A stretch of 64,000 nucleotides of DNA from an uncultured Poribacteria bacterium (GTDB taxonomy: Bacteria; Poribacteria; WGA-4E; WGA-3G): the NCBI GenBank assembly GCA_951812525.1, contig OX638316.1, forward strand, positions 124,001 through 188,000, written 5' to 3'. The position numbers were made by a program, and so were the translations under genes. Positions within the stretch are counted from its first letter, which is position 1. Each line of letters starts with the position of its first letter. The notes beneath the pieces were generated by a model. It was not told the DNA's origin, searched no databases, and saw only the letters and a program-made list of their open reading frames with translations. Shown piece after piece: positions 39,448-49,167 of this stretch.

Positions 39448-39981
39448 ATGACAGAAGATAAATTCCTTGAGTTGGTCCATGAACACCAAGCTCAGATTTA
39501 TCAGCATACGCTTTATCTACTCAGGAATCGGGAAGATGCGGAGGATATAACACAGGAGACCTTCATAAAGGCATGGGAACACCGTTCCAAATTACGTCTG
39601 AAGACCGTTCGTTCATGGTTGCTAAAATGCGCGCAAAATCTCTGTTTCAACCTGTTAAAGCGGCGCAAATTTCAGGAACCTTTGACCGAAGGCGATGAAA
39701 CGGAACTTGAAATGCTACTACACAGGCACACACACCGATCAACTCCACTGCCTGATGAACTTGTCATCAAGCAGGAGCTTAAAGTGTCAGTGCACGATGC
39801 CATCAATAAATTACCGCCAGAGATGCGATCGGTCGTAATTATGCGGGAATTGGATGGCATGAGTTTCAAGGAGATCGCAGAGGTATTAGAACAACCGGAA
39901 GGCACTGTAAAATCAACCGTATTTCGTGCCCGCAAGAGGTTGCGGGAACTACTGAGTCCCTACTGGAGAAATAACGAATGA
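39448..39981 (+). CDS. ECF-family RNA polymerase sigma factor
   Basis: A 177-residue sigma-70 family group 4 protein. Region 2 (about 10-75) includes NREDAEDITQETFIKAWEH, which contacts core polymerase and the -10 element. Region 4 (about 115-170) includes LPPEMRSVVIMRELDGMSF and the helix-turn-helix FKEIAEVLEQPEGTVKSTV. Region 3 is absent, as usual for ECF factors. The ATG follows GGAG by nine bases. The stop overlaps the next start by ATGA, coupling it to its anti-sigma. It heads an operon with anti-sigma, DUF4252 and probably the DUF5694 genes. Confidence 0.95.
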   Translation: MTEDKFLELVHEHQAQIYQHTLYLLRNREDAEDITQETFIKAWEHRSKLRLKTVRSWLLKCAQNLCFNLLKRRKFQEPLTEGDETELEMLLHRHTHRSTPLPDELVIKQELKVSVHDAINKLPPEMRSVVIMRELDGMSFKEIAEVLEQPEGTVKSTVFRARKRLRELLSPYWRNNE

Positions 39982-40658
39982 ATCACTTTTCTCTCCATCA
40001 AGATTCATCTTGCATAGAAGTTCAAGACACCTTAGAGGCATATCTCGCCGATGAATTGGATGCAGACACGCATGCGATAGTGGAAGCACACATTGCATCC
40101 TGTCCAAGGTGTCAAGATGAAGTTCACCTCGCAGGAGCAATTAGCGAAGCGTTACATGAACTTCCGAGACCGGAGCCGCCGCCGGAAATCTTTAACGCTG
40201 TTGCGGCTTACGTTCGCGCACACCCAGACAAGCGTGAGCGATGGTGGCATCGGATACTTCAATTATTCACATTCGGGGATAATTTAACTTACTCACTTGT
40301 TCGTGCAGGTGCGCTGGTATGCCTCTTAGGAATTGTTCTGTTTGGTGGCTACCAATATCAACAGCACCAAAAGATTGTACAAGCCTCCCGGGACTTGAAT
40401 TATGCCCTCAGCAAGTTGAACTTCGCAGTTGAAAGAACCAATACTGTGGTTAGCGAAAAACTTCCAGATGCCCGGATTAACAGGGCTTCAAGCCATCCGT
40501 TCGTTCAGATTGAGGCAGCCTCGCGCCGGGCATCGAAACAGAAAAGGAATATTTCATCCGCAATTCATCGAAGTTTGGATAACTCTAACCGGTTACCTGC
40601 AAAACATCCAGATACAGAACGTCATCATACCTCACAGCAAGAAGGAGAAACACCATGA
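39978..40658 (+). CDS. Membrane anti-sigma factor with zinc-finger (ZAS-like) domain
   Basis: A 226-residue protein. The N-terminal HxxxCxxC motif (H38, C42, C45) defines the zinc anti-sigma domain that sequesters ECF sigma factors. One membrane helix at about 105-124 (LVRAGALVCLLGIVLFGG) puts the remaining 100 residues outside the cytoplasm, where they could sense a signal. It overlaps both neighbours by ATGA, so sigma, anti-sigma and DUF4252 protein are translated as a coupled unit. The sensed signal is unknown. Confidence 0.9.
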   Translation: MNHFSLHQDSSCIEVQDTLEAYLADELDADTHAIVEAHIASCPRCQDEVHLAGAISEALHELPRPEPPPEIFNAVAAYVRAHPDKRERWWHRILQLFTFGDNLTYSLVRAGALVCLLGIVLFGGYQYQQHQKIVQASRDLNYALSKLNFAVERTNTVVSEKLPDARINRASSHPFVQIEAASRRASKQKRNISSAIHRSLDNSNRLPAKHPDTERHHTSQQEGETP

Positions 40659-41353
40659 GGAACCTCACTCCTACAGCTCTTTTAACGAGTATAACCCTTT
40701 TAATTGTCTGTTGCGTCTTCGCTAACGGGCACTCTCTGACTCATAGCTCCGAGAAAACAGAGGCGATTTACGGTAAAGTAGAGATGGATTTGCCGGACGC
40801 TCCTGCCCCTAAAGTCAAAATTGACTTGGATAAGAATTTTTTTACGATGCTTATCAATTTCGGTGTGGCGAGCAATCCAAAACTTTCCGGAGACGCATCA
40901 ATAGATCTGGCGGAATGGACAGCTTATGCCGAAATGCTAAAAGGCACTGCCATCCGGACTTATGATAAAGAGGCGGAAAACCTCAATCAGATAATGGGGC
41001 ATTACCAAGATGCCCTTGATAGTAAAAACTGGGAACACCTCATCAAAATCAAGGATACATTCAATCTGAGTCTGCTTTATGCGGAAGAACCGACGATAGT
41101 GCACGGTATCTTCATCATGGTTAACGATGACGACGGATTGGGTTTCGCGAATATTTATGGAGAGATCGATTTCGAGAAACTTGGCGTTCTACTCGGACAG
41201 CTTCTGGAATCCAATTCAGAGGAGAGCATCTCCAAAACGGTTAGCACTTGGATAAACGCTCCGATGCCCCAATGGTTGAATGTCAAGTTTAATTCAGAAA
41301 AACTGGATGATACATCGAAACCAGAAACTAAAACAGATGATCGTTCAAAGTAA
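40655..41353 (+). CDS. Exported DUF4252 protein
   Basis: A 232-residue protein with signal peptide (MRNLTPTALLTSITLLIVCCVFANG). The body matches DUF4252: IRTYDKEAENLNQIMGHYQ, LDSKNWEHLIKIKDT, then VHGIFIMVNDDDGLGFANIYGEIDFEKLG. DUF4252 proteins are commonly encoded beside ECF sigma/anti-sigma pairs and are thought to be extracytoplasmic partners or targets; the molecular role is unknown. It is preceded by AAGGAG and coupled to the anti-sigma by a four-base overlap. A second DUF4252 domain follows in the next gene. Confidence 0.85.
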   Translation: MRNLTPTALLTSITLLIVCCVFANGHSLTHSSEKTEAIYGKVEMDLPDAPAPKVKIDLDKNFFTMLINFGVASNPKLSGDASIDLAEWTAYAEMLKGTAIRTYDKEAENLNQIMGHYQDALDSKNWEHLIKIKDTFNLSLLYAEEPTIVHGIFIMVNDDDGLGFANIYGEIDFEKLGVLLGQLLESNSEESISKTVSTWINAPMPQWLNVKFNSEKLDDTSKPETKTDDRSK

Positions 41354-41365
41354 GGAGTAGCACAC

Positions 41366-42781
41366 ATGAAACTGCAAAGACAGCGCACACTGCTATTGAT
41401 AGCACTTATTTTACCGTTGTGGTTTGCTCTGGTTAACATAGCACCAGCGCAGCAGGAAAAACCCAATAAAACAGAGCGGAATGGGCTTATTCTCTTTGAT
41501 TTTCCTGAACCCACTGAGGCAAAAGTTGAGGTTAACTTAACAGCGAAACTTATCAATCTGGTGACCAAATCGGTGAGCAGTGCGCCAGAAGTCGTGGACC
41601 TGATTCAGATGCTGGACGGCATCTATGTCCGTACCTACGATAGGGCAACGATTGATGAAAAGAAAATGGTTAACTACTTTCAGGACAGGATGAAAAAAGA
41701 CGAGTGGGAGGTACTTGTCAAAGTCAAGGAAGACAGTGAAACAGTGGAAATCAGTCTACTGTTCGACGAGAACAAGGTTTACGGGATTTTTGTCATCGTA
41801 GCTCCTATAATGCCTGCGGAAGTTACCTTCGTCAACATCGTCGGGGAGATTGCGCCAGAACGCATCGAGGAATTGCTGGGCAACCTAAGCAATTTTGGGG
41901 CGACCGATATTGATCTTGGAAGCAAGTTGAAGGGTCAATGGCGCAGAGACGACACCCGAAAAAAACCGACAGTTATGATCCTCGGTAGCACATTTTTTAC
42001 GAATCCGGGAATCAATAGATTCAATACAAGAATGGATGATGTCTTGGCACCCAAACGCCAACGCGAAATGGAACAACTGATCTCTCAAATTAAAGAGTTT
42101 CGTCCCACTAAGATAGCCGTTTATGCAGACGACAGTATGGATGTTGAGATTAACGCAAACTATCAAGGCTACTTGGAGGGCACCTACGAACTCACACGAA
42201 ACCTGCCCGACCAGATCGGCTTTCGGTTAGCAAAACAGATGGAGCACCCGAAAGTTTACTGTGTTGCTGATTGGCCAAAACAGCGGCCAATCCTTGAAAA
42301 AATTGACGACCACTTGATGGACTACGATGCCTTTGCGGAGGCAAACAATCAGGAGCACCTCCTACCGAGCATGTCCACAAGTGGGGTGAAGGTTCGATCA
42401 GATGTAGATGGCAGAATCTGGATCGAACGTGAGGAATACGAACCGCTGATTAACCTGTATATACGGATTAACCAACCTGAAAGCATACTCGCCGACCATC
42501 AAAGTTATCTGCGGACCGCACGCATTGGACTAAAAGACCAATACCCAGGTGCCAATTGGGTTGTCCATTGGTGGTATAATCATAATCTCAAGAATTTTGT
42601 GAACCTGACGCGCATTACTGAATCTACCGATGACCGCATTCTGTTTATTGTCGGTGCCGGACATGTTTATCTAGTGCAACAATTTTTGGAAGATTCAGGA
42701 GAATACACCGTTGAAAGCCCTCTGAAGTACTTGAATACAAATCAATTGGAAGAAATATCTTTAACCGGGGAAACCGATTGA
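41366..42781 (+). CDS. Exported DUF4252-DUF5694 fusion with degenerate DUF5694 domain
   Basis: A 471-residue protein. After a signal peptide (1-29), residues about 40-190 form a DUF4252 domain (VRTYDRATIDEKKM, DEWEVLVKVKED, VTFVNIVGEIAPERIEEL). Residues about 200-460 form a DUF5694 domain like those of the next five genes. The paralogues have LGSTHL and IALE at two strongly conserved positions, but this copy has Phe at residue 210 instead of His and Tyr at 253 instead of Glu, and YCVADWP instead of YCVDY. The late GAGHVYLVQQF is kept. The fusion ties the DUF5694 array to the ECF/DUF4252 module and looks like a binding rather than catalytic version. AAGGAG lies ten bases upstream of the ATG. 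Confidence 0.85.
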   Translation: MKLQRQRTLLLIALILPLWFALVNIAPAQQEKPNKTERNGLILFDFPEPTEAKVEVNLTAKLINLVTKSVSSAPEVVDLIQMLDGIYVRTYDRATIDEKKMVNYFQDRMKKDEWEVLVKVKEDSETVEISLLFDENKVYGIFVIVAPIMPAEVTFVNIVGEIAPERIEELLGNLSNFGATDIDLGSKLKGQWRRDDTRKKPTVMILGSTFFTNPGINRFNTRMDDVLAPKRQREMEQLISQIKEFRPTKIAVYADDSMDVEINANYQGYLEGTYELTRNLPDQIGFRLAKQMEHPKVYCVADWPKQRPILEKIDDHLMDYDAFAEANNQEHLLPSMSTSGVKVRSDVDGRIWIEREEYEPLINLYIRINQPESILADHQSYLRTARIGLKDQYPGANWVVHWWYNHNLKNFVNLTRITESTDDRILFIVGAGHVYLVQQFLEDSGEYTVESPLKYLNTNQLEEISLTGETD

Positions 42782-42904: not shown

Positions 42905-43843
42905 ATGAAAGTCTTAGTGAAATGTAAATTTTATTTGATAACGTTACTCGTTGCTGCATCATTCATAGTCGGCACAGCCGTAAGTGATGACCATACCGAC
43001 GTATCTACAAAAGATGCCAAGCAGACAACAAAGAAACCGACAATTATGATTCTTGGTAGTACGCATTTGGCAAATGATGGATTAGATGTCTACAACACCA
43101 AAATGGATGATGTCCGCGTTCCTAAACGTCAGCGCGAGATCGAACAGTTAGTCGAACAACTCAAAGAATTTAAACCCACCAAGATAGCACTGGAGAGGGA
43201 TGAAAAAACGAATGGCACTGGAACCCAAACAGAATATCAAGGGTATCTTAATGGCACATATCAACTCGATCAATCAGAACATAACCAGATTGGATTCCGA
43301 CTGGCAAAACAGATGGGACATCCTAAGCTTTACTGCGTTGATTATCGACTTGATTACCGAAAAGATGACCCCATCATTCCTTTCGATGAATTTGATATTA
43401 CTTTGATAGACTACATTACGTTCGCAAAGACAAACAATCTGGAGCATTTGCTACCTCCCTCACCTACTGAAGGGAAAATAACCCAAGATGAAAAGGGAAC
43501 AACTTGGATTGAACCTGAGAAATATATATCAATCATTGATATGTACATACAGGACAATGACCCCGAAGGTATACGTAAAGACCATCAGGAATATATACGG
43601 TGGATCGCACGTGTTGGACTCGGCGACGAATACCCGGGTGCCAATTGGCTTTCCCATTGGTGGTATGATCGAAATCTGAAGATTTATGTGAACTTGACGC
43701 GGATCACTGAATCTGCCGATGACCGGATTATATTGATTATTGGTGCTGGGCACGTCTATCTGGTGCAGCAGTTTCTTGAGGAGTCAGGGGATTACATCAT
43801 CGAAAGTCCGTTGAAGTACTTGAAGACAGCAACCAGCGATTGA
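42905..43843 (+). CDS. Exported DUF5694 protein (array copy 1)
   Basis: A 312-residue protein with N-terminal signal (MKVLVKCKFYLITLLVAASF, cleaved near 26), a short spacer and one DUF5694 domain. Conserved sites: LGSTHL (H54), IALERDEKT (E97), GFRLAKQMGHPKLYCVDY and GAGHVYLVQQF. The GxxH-Glu-GAGH pattern recalls the TraB/Tiki/EreA-ChaN group of hydrolase-like proteins; that relation is inference, and DUF5694 has no assigned reaction. TAGGAG precedes the ATG. It is nearest to array copy 4 (45953), sharing the GTQTEYQGYL segment. Probable periplasmic or extracellular location. Confidence 0.85.
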   Translation: MKVLVKCKFYLITLLVAASFIVGTAVSDDHTDVSTKDAKQTTKKPTIMILGSTHLANDGLDVYNTKMDDVRVPKRQREIEQLVEQLKEFKPTKIALERDEKTNGTGTQTEYQGYLNGTYQLDQSEHNQIGFRLAKQMGHPKLYCVDYRLDYRKDDPIIPFDEFDITLIDYITFAKTNNLEHLLPPSPTEGKITQDEKGTTWIEPEKYISIIDMYIQDNDPEGIRKDHQEYIRWIARVGLGDEYPGANWLSHWWYDRNLKIYVNLTRITESADDRIILIIGAGHVYLVQQFLEESGDYIIESPLKYLKTATSD

Positions 43844-43890: not shown

Positions 43891-43932
43891 GCACCGCGAC
43901 ATGAAGACTTTGAAACTACACTGCCGCGGTGC
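43891..43932. repeat. Inverted repeat before array copy 2
   Basis: GCACCGCG (43891-43898) and CGCGGTGC (43925-43932) are perfectly complementary over eight bases around a 26-base loop that contains the first in-frame ATG (43901). The ribosome site GGAGAGGAG lies just after the second arm. Confidence 0.6.
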
Positions 43933-43951
43933 GGAGAGGAGAAGCACGAAA

Positions 43952-44743
43952 ATGAAACCGACAATTATGGTTCTTGGCAGTGGACACCTATCAAATCCGG
44001 GAATGGATAGTTTCAATTATAAAATGGACGATGTCCGCGCTCCCAAACGCCAATGCGAGATCCAGCAACTCGTCACACAGCTTAAGGCGTATCAACCTAA
44101 CAAGATAGCACTTGAGGCGGATCCTGCACGGGACGCTAAAGTCAACGCGAGTTACCGAGACTATCTGGGAGGAGCCTACGAACTCCAGCGAAACGAAGGC
44201 GACCAGATTGGATATAGATTGGCAAAACAGATGGGACACCCGAAGTTGTACTGCGTTGACTATTGGGATGATTGGTACAAGGCGTTTCCTGTGGATGATG
44301 ATAAGGTAGATTACGATACCTTCGCGAAGGCACACAATATGGATTATCTTTTAGACCCGAAGCCTACTGAAGGAAAAATCACGCAGGATAAAGATGGCAC
44401 AATTTGGATTGAATCTGAGACATACGAACCGATAGTCGATATGTATATACGCATCAACCGACCTGAAGGTAGACTCGCCGATCATCAGGGATACCTGCGA
44501 ACGGCGCGGATCGGATTAGGTAGTGAGTATCCAGGCGCAAATTGGGTCTGGTATTGGTACGAGAGAAATCTTAAGATTTTTGTCAATTTGACGCGCATCA
44601 CCGAATCTGCCGATGACCGGATCCTGCTGATTATCGGTGCTGGACACGTTTATCTGGTGCAGCAGTTTCTTGAGGAGTCGGGGAATTACATTGTCGAAAG
44701 TCCTTTGAAATATCTGGATGCGGGTGAAACGCATACGCCTTAA
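43952..44743 (+). CDS. DUF5694 protein without signal peptide (array copy 2)
   Basis: A 263-residue DUF5694 domain starting directly with MKPTIMVLGSGHLSN. The ATG at 43952 is preferred because GGAGAGGAG lies ten bases upstream; the in-frame ATG at 43901 would add a basic, non-hydrophobic stretch and is inside a hairpin. Unlike copies 1, 3 and 5, no secretion signal exists, so this copy is predicted to be cytoplasmic. Conserved His (GSGH), Glu (IALEAD) and GAGHVYLV are retained. Function is unknown; it may act on the same kind of substrate in another compartment. Confidence 0.82.
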   Translation: MKPTIMVLGSGHLSNPGMDSFNYKMDDVRAPKRQCEIQQLVTQLKAYQPNKIALEADPARDAKVNASYRDYLGGAYELQRNEGDQIGYRLAKQMGHPKLYCVDYWDDWYKAFPVDDDKVDYDTFAKAHNMDYLLDPKPTEGKITQDKDGTIWIESETYEPIVDMYIRINRPEGRLADHQGYLRTARIGLGSEYPGANWVWYWYERNLKIFVNLTRITESADDRILLIIGAGHVYLVQQFLEESGNYIVESPLKYLDAGETHTP

Positions 44744-44821
44744 TTTGTTGTTCCAGTTGTTGAAAATATGGCAATCACTATTTTCCGGTGGATCAACCCC
44801 CGATTATTAGGAGAAAATGCT

Positions 44822-45745
44822 ATGACAGTCTTAGTGAAATGCAAACTTTATTTTTTAACTTTACTCGCCGCCATGCTATTTATGGTCGGCACAGTCGCAA
44901 GTAATGCTCAAACAGATGTATCCACTGGAGATACCAAGCAGATAATAAAGAAACCGACAGTCATGATTCTCGGCAGCACGCATCTGTCAAATCCCGGAGC
45001 GGATGTCTTCAATCTAAAAATGGACGATGTTCTCGCCCCTAAACGCCAACAGGAAATTGAGGAACTCGTCACACAGCTTAAGGCATATCAACCTACAAAG
45101 ATAGCACTTGAGGCGACGCCTTCTGAAGAAGCTGGGTTTAACGGAAATTATCAAGGCTATCTCAAAGGGACATATCAACTCAAGCGCGGTGAAAAGGATC
45201 AAATCGGGTTTCGGTTAGCAAAGCAGATGGGACACCCGAAACTGTATTGCGTTGATTATTTTCCATGGCCAGACAACCACCCTTTCTTTCCAGAAGGTTT
45301 TGATTGGGATTTGATAGATTATCGTAAGTTCGCAGAAATCCACAGTCAAGAACATCTCCTGTCTTCTCCCGGGATTGAGGGCAAAGTCACGAAGGATAAA
45401 GATGGTATCACTTGGATCGAACCTGAAAAATACGAACCGATAATTGATATGTATATCCGCCTCAATCAGCCCGAATGGAAACGCTCAAACCATCAGAAAT
45501 ATCTGCGGAGTGCACGGATTGGTTTAGGTGACCAATATCCGGGGGCGAATTGGATGGCACACTCTTGGTATGATAGAGATCTCAAGATTTTTGTCAACCT
45601 GACGCGCATTACCGAATCTGCCGATGAGCGCATACTGCTGATTATTGGTGCGGCGCATACCTTCCAGATTGAGCAGTTTCTTGAAGATTCGGGGGATTAT
45701 ATCGTTGAGAGTCCACTGAAATATTTGAAGGCAGAAGAGAGGTAG
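44822..45745 (+). CDS. Exported DUF5694 protein (array copy 3)
   Basis: A 307-residue protein from ATG 44822, which follows TTAGGAG and begins a signal peptide (MTVLVKCKLYFLTLLAAMLF) matching the other exported copies; an upstream in-frame ATG at 44768 is rejected. The DUF5694 domain keeps LGSTHL and IALE. Its late motif is GAAHTFQIEQF instead of GAGHVYLVQQF, so the His is kept but the surrounding loop differs. This suggests a somewhat different active or binding site. Confidence 0.85.
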   Translation: MTVLVKCKLYFLTLLAAMLFMVGTVASNAQTDVSTGDTKQIIKKPTVMILGSTHLSNPGADVFNLKMDDVLAPKRQQEIEELVTQLKAYQPTKIALEATPSEEAGFNGNYQGYLKGTYQLKRGEKDQIGFRLAKQMGHPKLYCVDYFPWPDNHPFFPEGFDWDLIDYRKFAEIHSQEHLLSSPGIEGKVTKDKDGITWIEPEKYEPIIDMYIRLNQPEWKRSNHQKYLRSARIGLGDQYPGANWMAHSWYDRDLKIFVNLTRITESADERILLIIGAAHTFQIEQFLEDSGDYIVESPLKYLKAEER

Positions 45746-45952: not shown

Positions 45953-46780
45953 ATGACCAATAAACCGACAATCATGATTCTTGGTAGTTCGCACTTGGCG
46001 AATTATGGTCTTGACGTATACAACACAAAAATGGATGACGTCCGCGCTCCCAAACGCCAACGCGAGATCGAACAGTTAGTCGAACAACTCAAAGTGTTTC
46101 AACCTACCAAGATAGCACTTGAGAGGGATGAAAAAACGCATGGTGCTGGGACCCAAACAGAATATCAAGGGTATCTTAAAGGGACGTATGAACTCGATCA
46201 ATCAGAACATGATCAGATTGGATTTCGGTTAGCAAAACAGATGGGACATCCTAAACTTTACTGTGTTGATTACCGAATTGATTACCGAAAAGATGACCCT
46301 TTCATTCCTTGGGATGATTTTAATAGGGATTTGATACGCTACCATGAATTCGCAAAGAAAAACAATCTGGAACACCTTCTCCCTCCTGCGCCTACGAATG
46401 AAGGGAAAATTACACAGGATGAAAAGGGAACAACTTGGATTGAACCTGAGAAATACATATCAATCATTGATATGTACATACGTGATAACGAACCCGAAGG
46501 TAGACGCGAGAACCATCAGCGCTATATCCGATGGATCGCGCGTGTCGGGCTCGGTGACGATTACCCGGGTGCCAATTGGGTTGCCCACTCTTGGTATGAT
46601 CGGAATCTGAAGATTTACGTCAATCTTACCCGTATCACCGAATCTGCCGATGATCGGATTATGCTGATTATTGGTGCTGGGCATGTCTATCTGGTGGAGC
46701 AGTTTTTTGAGGAGTCAGGGGACTACACCATTGAGAGTCCGTTGAAATACTTAGATACGAAGGAGATGCAAACACCTTAA
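45953..46780 (+). CDS. DUF5694 protein that lost its signal peptide (array copy 4)
   Basis: A 275-residue DUF5694 domain starting at the ATG that abuts the TAA of the severed signal peptide. AGGAG lies 11 bases upstream, inside the old signal-peptide spacer, so reinitiation or direct initiation is possible and would leave the product in the cytoplasm. Conserved LGSSHL, IALERDEKT, YCVDY and GAGHVYLVEQF are intact, so the domain does not look decayed. It is most similar to copy 1, indicating a fairly recent duplication. Confidence 0.8.
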   Translation: MTNKPTIMILGSSHLANYGLDVYNTKMDDVRAPKRQREIEQLVEQLKVFQPTKIALERDEKTHGAGTQTEYQGYLKGTYELDQSEHDQIGFRLAKQMGHPKLYCVDYRIDYRKDDPFIPWDDFNRDLIRYHEFAKKNNLEHLLPPAPTNEGKITQDEKGTTWIEPEKYISIIDMYIRDNEPEGRRENHQRYIRWIARVGLGDDYPGANWVAHSWYDRNLKIYVNLTRITESADDRIMLIIGAGHVYLVEQFFEESGDYTIESPLKYLDTKEMQTP

Positions 46781-46846: not shown

Positions 46847-46992
46847 TAGGAAAAAGTTTTATGAAAGTCTTAATGAAGTGTCAATTCTATTTGATAACGT
46901 TGCTCACTACCGTATTATTTAGGAAAAAGTTTTATGAAAGTCTTAATGAAGTGTCAATTCTATTTGATAACGTTGCTCGCTACCGTATTATT
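46847..46992 (+). repeat. 73-bp tandem duplication over the start of array copy 5
   Basis: Two adjacent 73-base units (46847-46919 and 46920-46992) are identical except for one base (CTCACTA versus CTCGCTA). Each contains TAGGAAAAAGTTTT, an ATG (46861, 46934) and the first 20 signal-peptide codons. Since 73 is not a multiple of three, translation from the first ATG leaves the gene frame and ends after about 50 codons. Confidence 0.92.
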
Positions 46993-47863
46993 TATGGTAG
47001 GCACAGCCATAAGTGACGATCAGACAGACGTATCTGCAGGAGGTAATATGCAAGTAACCAAAAAACCGACAATCATGATTCTCGGCACCGCACACTTAGC
47101 GAATCCGGGCATGGATGGTGTCAATCTCAAAATGGATGATGTTCACGCGCCCAAACGCCAACGTGAGATTCAGGAGTTAGTCGAACAGCTCAAGACGTTT
47201 AGTCCTACTAAGATAGCAATGGAAGTGGACTTCTCACGGGATGCTGAAATTAATGCATCCTACCAAAGTTATCTGAAAGGAACGTATGAACTTACACGCA
47301 GCGAAGGCCACCAGATCGGATTTCGGTTAGCAAAACAACTGAGGCATTCAAAGGTATACTGCGTCGATTATTTCCGAAGCAGTAAAGAAAATCCAATTTT
47401 TAATGGTGGTATTGATAGTGATTTGATAGACCGTAGTGGCTTTGCGAAGAGACACAATCAGGAGCACCTCTTCGGATCCCATCCCGGAGATCCAGGAAAA
47501 GTTATAGTGGATACGGATGGTACAGTCTGGATTGAACCGGAGAAATATGAGCCAATAATTGACATGCTTATACGTCTCAATCAGCCTGCATGGAGCCGCG
47601 ACAGCCAGCGAGCATATTTACATGATGCGCGTGTTGGATTGGGGGACGAATACCCAGGGGTGAATTGGCTTGTTCATATTTGGTATGATAGAAACCTCAA
47701 GATTTTTGTGAATATAACGCGGATCACCGAATCTGCAGATGATCGCATTCTGTTGATGATGGGTGCCGGTCACATCTTTCTGGTGCAGCAGTTTCTTGAG
47801 AATTCGGGAGATTATATTATTGAGAGTCCGTTGAAATACCTAAAGACGGAGGAAGATAATTGA
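46934..47863 (+). CDS. Exported DUF5694 protein (array copy 5)
   Basis: A 309-residue protein with signal peptide (MKVLMKCQFYLITLLATVLF) and a DUF5694 domain with LGTAHLANPG, IAMEVD, YCVDYF and GAGHIFLVQQF, so the candidate key residues are present. The second ATG of the 73-bp duplication is the productive start; the first yields an out-of-frame decoy that could compete for ribosomes. It is the last copy before the sigma-FtsZ fusion gene, 104 bases downstream. Confidence 0.85.
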   Translation: MKVLMKCQFYLITLLATVLFMVGTAISDDQTDVSAGGNMQVTKKPTIMILGTAHLANPGMDGVNLKMDDVHAPKRQREIQELVEQLKTFSPTKIAMEVDFSRDAEINASYQSYLKGTYELTRSEGHQIGFRLAKQLRHSKVYCVDYFRSSKENPIFNGGIDSDLIDRSGFAKRHNQEHLFGSHPGDPGKVIVDTDGTVWIEPEKYEPIIDMLIRLNQPAWSRDSQRAYLHDARVGLGDEYPGVNWLVHIWYDRNLKIFVNITRITESADDRILLMMGAGHIFLVQQFLENSGDYIIESPLKYLKTEEDN

Positions 47864-47967: not shown

Positions 47968-49167
47968 ATGCGATACGATCTATTAACGCACACAGATTTA
48001 ACAGATGAAGAACTCATTCGACTTGTACAAGCCGAAGACGAGTTAGCATTTATAGAGTTGATGTCGCGTTATAGTCCACGTATATGGAAGGTAGTTATCG
48101 CAAATTCGAGGCAACACCGCGATGCCGAAGAAATTCTGATGGACATCTGGAGGGCTGTCTGGGAAAACATCGGTGGGCTGCGGCGTGTTGAAAGTTTTGG
48201 TGGATGGCTGCAGCGTATTGCTTACAACGCTTGCAAGAGGTACTACGCCTCTACGCGCCACTCAAGGCGTGAAATCCCGCATACTGACTTAACCGATTAC
48301 ATTGATCGGGACGCAGTCGTACGTTTCCGGGAAATAGAACTCCGCGAGGATGTGAGAGAGGCAGTGCATCATTTGCCGAATAAAGTGCGTCATGTTGCGG
48401 TGCTATACTACCTGAAATCGTGGAGTATTAAAGAGATCCACGCTGAACTCGGATTAGCAATAGGTACAATCAAAACAAGATTAAGACAGACACGTGAACT
48501 CCTGCACAAGGCGTTCGGTGTCACACCTGAAAGAGGGAGAACTATGTCATCTAAACATGAAAAATCCAAGCGTCTCCACCCCAAAATCAAAGTAGTAGGG
48601 GTCGGTGGAGCAGGGGGTAACGCTGTCAAATGGATGATTGAATCCGGTTTGACTGATACTGAATTTTACGCCGTGGACGTAGTCAAGAAAGCACTTGACA
48701 AACATACTGACACAACACCTGTGCTGATTGGTGCTAACACCACGCCGGGATATTGTGGCGCGAATCCAGAGGTCGGCAAGAGGGCTGCCGAAGAAAATCG
48801 TGAGAAACTCCATTCCATCGTTGTGGACGCGGACATCGTTTTTATTATAGCTGGTATGGGTGGTGGAACGGGAGCAGGCGCTGCACCTCTGATTGCATCT
48901 CTCGCTCGAGAACAGGGAGCTTTAGCGGTGGGTGTTGTGACACATCCGTTCAATTTTGAAGGTAAACGTCGCTCCGAGCAAGCAGAACAGGGATTACAAG
49001 AACTTCGAGAATACGCTGATTCTGTTCATGTCGTGCCAAATCAACGGTTGCTTGATTCGATAGAGGAGAAGCAGAAACTGAAAATACGCGAGGCGTTTCG
49101 TCTAAGTGATGAAATGCTACTACACGGCGTTGAAAGCATCTCGGAATTCTATTCCAGCACTATGTGA
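47968..49167 (+). CDS. ECF sigma factor fused to the GTP-binding half of an FtsZ-like protein
   Basis: A 399-residue protein joining two families in one uninterrupted frame. Residues about 15-185 are an ECF sigma factor: region 2 with HRDAEEILMDIWRAVWEN and region 4 with WSIKEIHAELGLAIGTIKTR. Residues 206-392 match FtsZ from [15 protein letters not shown] through the tubulin signature GGGTGAG (298-304), PFNFEGKRR and VVPNQRLLDS to LLHGVESIS, about 60 percent identical by eye to the FtsZ at 8115-9416. The protein ends at 399, just before the T7 loop (NVDFAD in FtsZ), so it could bind GTP but should not complete the hydrolytic interface. An ATG with AGGGAG upstream (48544) could also yield the FtsZ part alone. 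A strong terminator follows. Confidence 0.9.
   Translation: MRYDLLTHTDLTDEELIRLVQAEDELAFIELMSRYSPRIWKVVIANSRQHRDAEEILMDIWRAVWENIGGLRRVESFGGWLQRIAYNACKRYYASTRHSRREIPHTDLTDYIDRDAVVRFREIELREDVREAVHHLPNKVRHVAVLYYLKSWSIKEIHAELGLAIGTIKTRLRQTRELLHKAFGVTPERGRTMSSKHEKSKRLHPKIKVVGVGGAGGNAVKWMIESGLTDTEFYAVDVVKKALDKHTDTTPVLIGANTTPGYCGANPEVGKRAAEENREKLHSIVVDADIVFIIAGMGGGTGAGAAPLIASLAREQGALAVGVVTHPFNFEGKRRSEQAEQGLQELREYADSVHVVPNQRLLDSIEEKQKLKIREAFRLSDEMLLHGVESISEFYSSTM

Follow-up and report, generated by a model that had tools for sequence, protein, structure and literature searches.

The gene analysed here, encoding a DUF4252:DUF5694 fusion protein, lies in a 64,000-nucleotide stretch of DNA (the window) within a single 5.06-Mb contig of Candidatus Poribacteria, whose close relatives are all poribacterial metagenome-assembled genomes. 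Upstream of it are genes for an ECF sigma factor, a zf-HC2 anti-sigma factor and a solo DUF4252 protein (Table 1). The sigma and anti-sigma genes are adjacent, on the same strand and overlap by 4 bases, as expected of members of one operon; the solo DUF4252 gene overlaps the anti-sigma gene by another 4 bases and is separated from the fused gene by 12 bases. The ECF/anti-sigma pair was found directly upstream of the fusion in 17/17 loci, with the solo DUF4252 gene in between in 11 of them. Downstream follow five intact DUF5694 paralogues (p2 to p6) scoring 151–159 bits against Pfam PF18950, and one further DUF5694 gene is located elsewhere in the same genome. In most loci the fused gene heads such a tandem array of intact copies. 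Beyond the array, an ECF sigma factor (regions r2 and r4) is fused to an N-terminal FtsZ half (TIGR00065 positions 9–205, E 2.8e-65) in a 399-aa ORF (47968–49167, + strand). ORFs of 407–422 aa matching this 399-aa protein were also present near the DUF5694 cluster in three relatives (loci L041, L058 and L185).

Table 1. Features of the fusion locus in window coordinates, and loci of a second clade of degenerate copies. Residue numbers 54–283 are those of paralogue p2.
Feature	Position or loci	Strand	Basis or remark
ECF sigma factor	39448..39981	+	Pfam Sigma70_r2, r4_2; upstream of fusion in 17/17 genomes
zf-HC2 anti-sigma factor	39978..40658	+	Pfam zf-HC2, E 1.4e-9; 4-base overlap with sigma gene
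Solo DUF4252 protein	40655..41353	+	Pfam DUF4252, E 1e-8; 4-base overlap with anti-sigma gene
DUF4252:DUF5694 fusion, candidate pseudoenzyme	41366..42781	+	471-aa ORF
DUF4252 module and linker of fusion	41453..41950	+	Pfam residues 55-170; AF2 model
Degenerate DUF5694 (TIKI/TraB-like) domain of fusion	41960..42778	+	starts KKPTVMILG, residue 199; alignments; AF2
F210, replaces motif-1 His (GxxH; H54)	41993..41995	+	
N217, replaces conserved Asp61	42014..42016	+	
Y253, replaces invariant Glu (E97)	42122..42124	+	
L280, replaces conserved Glu125	42203..42205	+	
A301, replaces Asp of YCVDY (D146)	42266..42268	+	
H406, replaces invariant Arg of RN motif (R256)	42581..42583	+	
H433, GAGH His kept (= H283)	42662..42664	+	
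Intact DUF5694 paralogue p2	42905..43843	+	Pfam, alignment; AF2 pLDDT 92.4; reference numbering
Intact DUF5694 paralogue p3	43901..44743	+	Pfam, alignment
Intact DUF5694 paralogue p4	44768..45745	+	Pfam, alignment; GAAH not GAGH
Intact DUF5694 paralogue p5	45953..46780	+	Pfam, alignment
Intact DUF5694 paralogue p6	46934..47863	+	Pfam, alignment; GTAH and IAME
Second clade of degenerate DUF5694 copies	L087, L091, L092, L095, L096, L103, L149		tandem arrays

Both parts of the fused protein scored well above the curated Pfam cut-offs, with DUF4252 at residues 55–170 (PF14060, 48 bits; cut-off 23.9 bits) and DUF5694 at residues 260–456 (PF18950, 142.8 bits; cut-off 27.5 bits). The AF2 model comprised two domains with a pLDDT of 86.2, and the DUF5694 blocks mostly reached 83–98. 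When the full fused model was searched with Foldseek, the DUF4252 module gave short matches of ~100 columns to Mog1 (1eq6, prob 0.95) and Flpp3 (6pny, prob 0.87) at non-significant E values of 0.03–0.05, which hint at a Mog1/PsbP-like fold for DUF4252. Since the Pfam DUF5694 model begins downstream of motifs 1 and 2, it is blind to the loss of the active site, and we rejected it as the sole test of the fused copy. Individual positions were compared by alignment, using the 312-aa paralogue p2 as the reference.

A sequence-only reading of this DNA had claimed that the fused copy lacks candidate active-site residues shared by its five paralogues, and all the residues it named were confirmed from the protein and its codons. 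The first motif, GS/T-x-H, reads GSTH, GSGH, GSTH, GSSH and GTAH in the five intact paralogues; the second is IALE in four and IAME in one, and YCVDY is found in all five. At these sites the fused copy carries F210, Y253 and A301, the latter in place of the Asp of YCVDY, while His433 of the GAGH motif is kept. Three changes had escaped the earlier reading, namely R256 to H406, D61 to N217 and E125 to L280. Besides H283, the equivalent of N257 is also retained.

A likely function of these residues was suggested by profile comparison. The alignment of intact DUF5694 domains matched that of TraB/PrgY/GumN proteins, fetched with PF01963, at 94.9% (hhalign; E 4.6e-8, score 61.1, 197 columns), and smaller alignments still gave 68.8% (E 4.5e-5). 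Control comparisons, one reversed and ten column-shuffled, yielded E values of 0.36–0.93 and scores of at most 13.8. The TraB invariants G83, H86, E112, R280, G302 and H305 were paired with G51, H54, E97, R256, G280 and H283 of DUF5694, which accordingly displays the TIKI/TraB motif set of two GxxH, a Glu and a basic residue in the same order. In a direct search with PF01963 the best score was 12.3 bits, covering motif 1 only and below the curated cut-off of 26.8 bits, so DUF5694 is a separate family and not a member of PF01963. Foldseek searches of the PDB with the p2 and fused models returned no match at E <= 0.001, and the assignment of a TIKI fold therefore rests on profiles and motif order rather than on superposition; likewise, no credible match emerged from a PDB sequence search with the DUF5694 and TraB profiles. 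Weak Pfam and NCBIfam matches to DXP reductoisomerase stayed below cut-off and were dismissed. The profile evidence places DUF5694 with the TraB/TIKI enzymes as a predicted relative. Mutagenesis of a characterised protease of the TIKI superfamily showed that two His, two Glu and one conserved Arg are essential, and a related domain lacking the His/Glu residues was inactive (PMC6254334). The literature that we searched contained no mention of DUF5694 and no demonstrated activity for any DUF5694 protein, which is why the prefix 'pseudo' used below rests on homology.

To survey conservation across the family, we sampled 85 poribacterial genomes and class-wide sets around Flagellimonas, Luteibacter and Brevundimonas genomes, the latter collected with the Pfam model, which includes neither H54 nor E97. 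A pattern-guided scan was added, and the subset it contributed is biased because H54 is part of one of the two patterns used. Nearly all the genomes compared were metagenome assemblies. The sample from other phyla comprised 49 DUF5694 domains; H54, E97, R256 and H283 were each present in 49/49 and N257 in 48/49, and the D146 position was Asp in 44 and Asn in five. The invariance of H and E on which the earlier reading depended therefore holds outside Poribacteria.

DUF4252-DUF5694 fusions were found 17 times, in 17 of the 38 genomes of one sponge-symbiont Poribacteria genus. As that reading had anticipated, none of the 17 retains either the motif-1 His or the Glu. Indeed, the His, Glu and Arg expected of an active TIKI enzyme are replaced in every fusion (H54 by F in 16 and by L in one, E97 by Y in 17, R256 by H in 17), and D146 is Ala throughout. 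Because the same changes recur in 17/17 orthologues from separate genomes, they are due neither to chance nor to assembly error. The H283 equivalent is likewise kept in 17/17, and this, together with the new His at the Arg site, might be taken to mean that the fused copy is still an enzyme in which His433, His406 and Tyr253 build a different active site. We regard such a changed mechanism as very improbable, given that the Glu, the first His and the Arg, each essential in the TIKI protease (PMC6254334), are all gone, along with Asp146, Asp61 and Glu125. The losses were also concentrated in ionisable columns: of the 15 columns that were at least 95% conserved outside two degenerate clades (the fusions and a standalone clade described below), the fusions had changed six of seven ionisable ones and none of the eight others (Fisher p 0.0014, post hoc, as are several of our contrasts). 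Because few columns are invariant, the four catalytic columns taken by themselves did not reach significance in a hypergeometric test (p 0.14).

Fusion by itself does not force this loss, since a Saprospiraceae DUF6265:DUF5694 protein (L134:99-1436) keeps all four active-site residues. A 469-aa ORF of genome G017 (L037:3805-5211) was considered as an intact fusion and rejected: its N-terminal part is an ABC-transporter transmembrane-like fragment, in frame before an intact DUF5694 domain through either a fusion or an assembly join, and not DUF4252, so it is no counterexample to the loss in DUF4252 fusions. Catalytic residues have also been lost without fusion. A second clade, in a sister genus, comprises seven standalone copies with E97Q and H283L in 7/7 and H54L in 3/7, and four further poribacterial standalone copies lack one or two of H54, E97, R256 and H283. 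Overall, at least one of these four residues was missing from 11/101 standalone domains in Poribacteria versus 0/49 elsewhere (Fisher p 0.016, uncorrected for kinship).

We next considered selection on the fused domain. Within the fusion, median pairwise dN/dS (Nei-Gojobori) was 0.089 in the DUF4252 part and 0.216 in the DUF5694 part, compared with 0.13–0.16 for sets of standalone copies, so that the degenerate domain evolves ~1.3 to 1.7 times as fast as the latter by this measure. The higher ratio is what would be expected if the DUF5694 part were a decaying passenger and selection since the fusion had maintained the DUF4252 part only. This explanation is improbable in light of several observations: the ORF has stayed open in 17 species at a median dS of ~0.57, dN/dS is well below 1, the non-ionisable invariant columns are kept 8/8, the AF2 fold is confident, and the new Tyr, Ala and His are fixed in 17/17, with the codons of the replacement residues varying synonymously. 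The constraint on the DUF5694 part is relaxed, yet it is under clear purifying selection.

Taken together, we consider that the fused DUF5694 domain is probably a conserved TIKI/TraB-fold pseudoenzyme (probability roughly 0.8), as the sequence-only reading had proposed on the condition that H and E are catalytic or metal ligands. The losses in 17/17 fusions, the TraB/TIKI profile match and the essential role of the equivalent residues in the TIKI-superfamily protease (PMC6254334) argue for this assignment, which is well supported because TIKI-type enzymes need the lost residues. Points against it are the retained second His, the somewhat faster evolution of the domain and the fact that a signal peptide was not recognisable in four of the 17 fusions (genomes G004, G005, G018 and G029); the last point also counts against a purely extracytoplasmic role. 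At loci L049, L051, L053 and L054, the four fused genes seem to have lost the signal peptide together with the solo DUF4252 gene, and they overlap with the end of the anti-sigma gene.

The origin of the fusion may be traced by what occupies the same operon slot in relatives. In a quick tree search that excluded the trait columns, the 17 fused DUF5694 domains grouped as a single clade (SH-aLRT 100). Elsewhere in the genus and in the sister genus, the slot is occupied by proteins with DUF4252 followed by a CBM9-like domain, either alone (~430–520 aa) or with an Omp85 barrel (~705–870 aa), often with standalone DUF5694 genes directly after them. In a DUF4252 tree built from few columns by quick search, the fused copies nest with the CBM9 forms, with the window copy placed just outside the other 16. 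Since the sister genomes hold DUF4252:CBM9-like proteins at the same slot, the degenerate domain appears to have replaced a putative binding module, and the simplest reading is that a deletion of the CBM9/Omp85 part brought DUF4252 into one gene with the DUF5694 copy that followed it. Large poribacterial DUF4252 proteins were seen at L056, L058, L060, L174, L180, L186, L188 and other loci; they comprise the DUF4252:CBM9:Omp85 type and, at L180, a separate DUF4252:Omp85 family with no CBM9 match. In a different poribacterial family, at L183:3036-4178, DUF4252 is fused to a 'toastrack' domain (DUF4097).

In the scenario we propose, the deletion would have linked the DUF4252 gene to the nearest DUF5694 copy downstream, which would then have lost catalysis. 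In a weaker step, the fused copy may have been retained as a module for ligand binding or signalling, mostly extracytoplasmic, that works with the sigma/anti-sigma operon, its ligand perhaps being the substrate of its live relatives. As the presumed active site is lost in all 17 species with the fusion, the protein has most likely ceased to be an enzyme and been repurposed for binding or regulation; for a binding or sensing role of the fused domain in particular, we put the odds slightly below even. Of the earlier proposal of a sensor linked to the sigma/anti-sigma system, the link stands as gene order, whereas the sensor role is a plausible hypothesis. The position of the fused gene at the head of arrays of intact copies would also suit an inactive partner regulating or shielding the adjacent live paralogues, as a heteromer or a substrate decoy, and the second, independent degenerate clade also sits in tandem arrays. 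Such a role falls within the pseudoenzyme reading and competes only with the sensor role. We deem it unlikely: in genome G005, a single 6.66-Mb contig, the fused copy is the sole match to DUF5694 and so needs no live paralogue there. More tentatively, and rather doubtful in its full form, the dead hydrolase domain might have been exapted as a binding module in place of the CBM9-like domain (and barrel), with a Phe/Tyr-refitted pocket that would recognise the former substrate, or else a ligand of sponge origin, and report to the sigma/anti-sigma pair.

These findings provide the uncharacterised DUF5694 family with a superfamily, a predicted active site and natural live and dead copies for testing. 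They also offer a traceable case in which an enzyme-like domain has become a module, probably without catalytic activity, next to a transcriptional switch, with both the older and the derived architectures present in living relatives. Compared with known systems, DUF5694 shares with the TIKI/TraB/PrgY/GumN proteins (PF01963) the order GxxH, Glu after the second strand, RN on a helix and GxxH; standalone DUF5694 differs by its sub-threshold PF01963 score and its own extra invariants, and the fused copy further by the absence of H, E and R. The DUF4252:CBM9_1:Omp85 proteins of sister Poribacteria occupy the same operon slot and have a homologous N-terminal DUF4252, but end in a CBM9-like domain and an outer-membrane barrel instead of DUF5694. 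A gene order of sigma-70, hypothetical protein and DUF4252 is likewise known from the Bacteroidota, in Porphyromonas gingivalis PG_0214-0216 and PG_0985-0987, although the reports on these clusters do not mention a DUF5694, CBM9 or Omp85 part (PMC10101095, PMC10434189). The C-terminal TIKI-like domain of Pasteurella multocida toxin resembles the fused copy in lacking the catalytic His/Glu set and has no endopeptidase activity (PMC6254334). While that one dead TIKI-superfamily domain, already described, belongs to an unrelated architecture and lineage, here the loss occurred at least twice in one phylum, and the fused dead copy lies beside live paralogues and an ECF operon.
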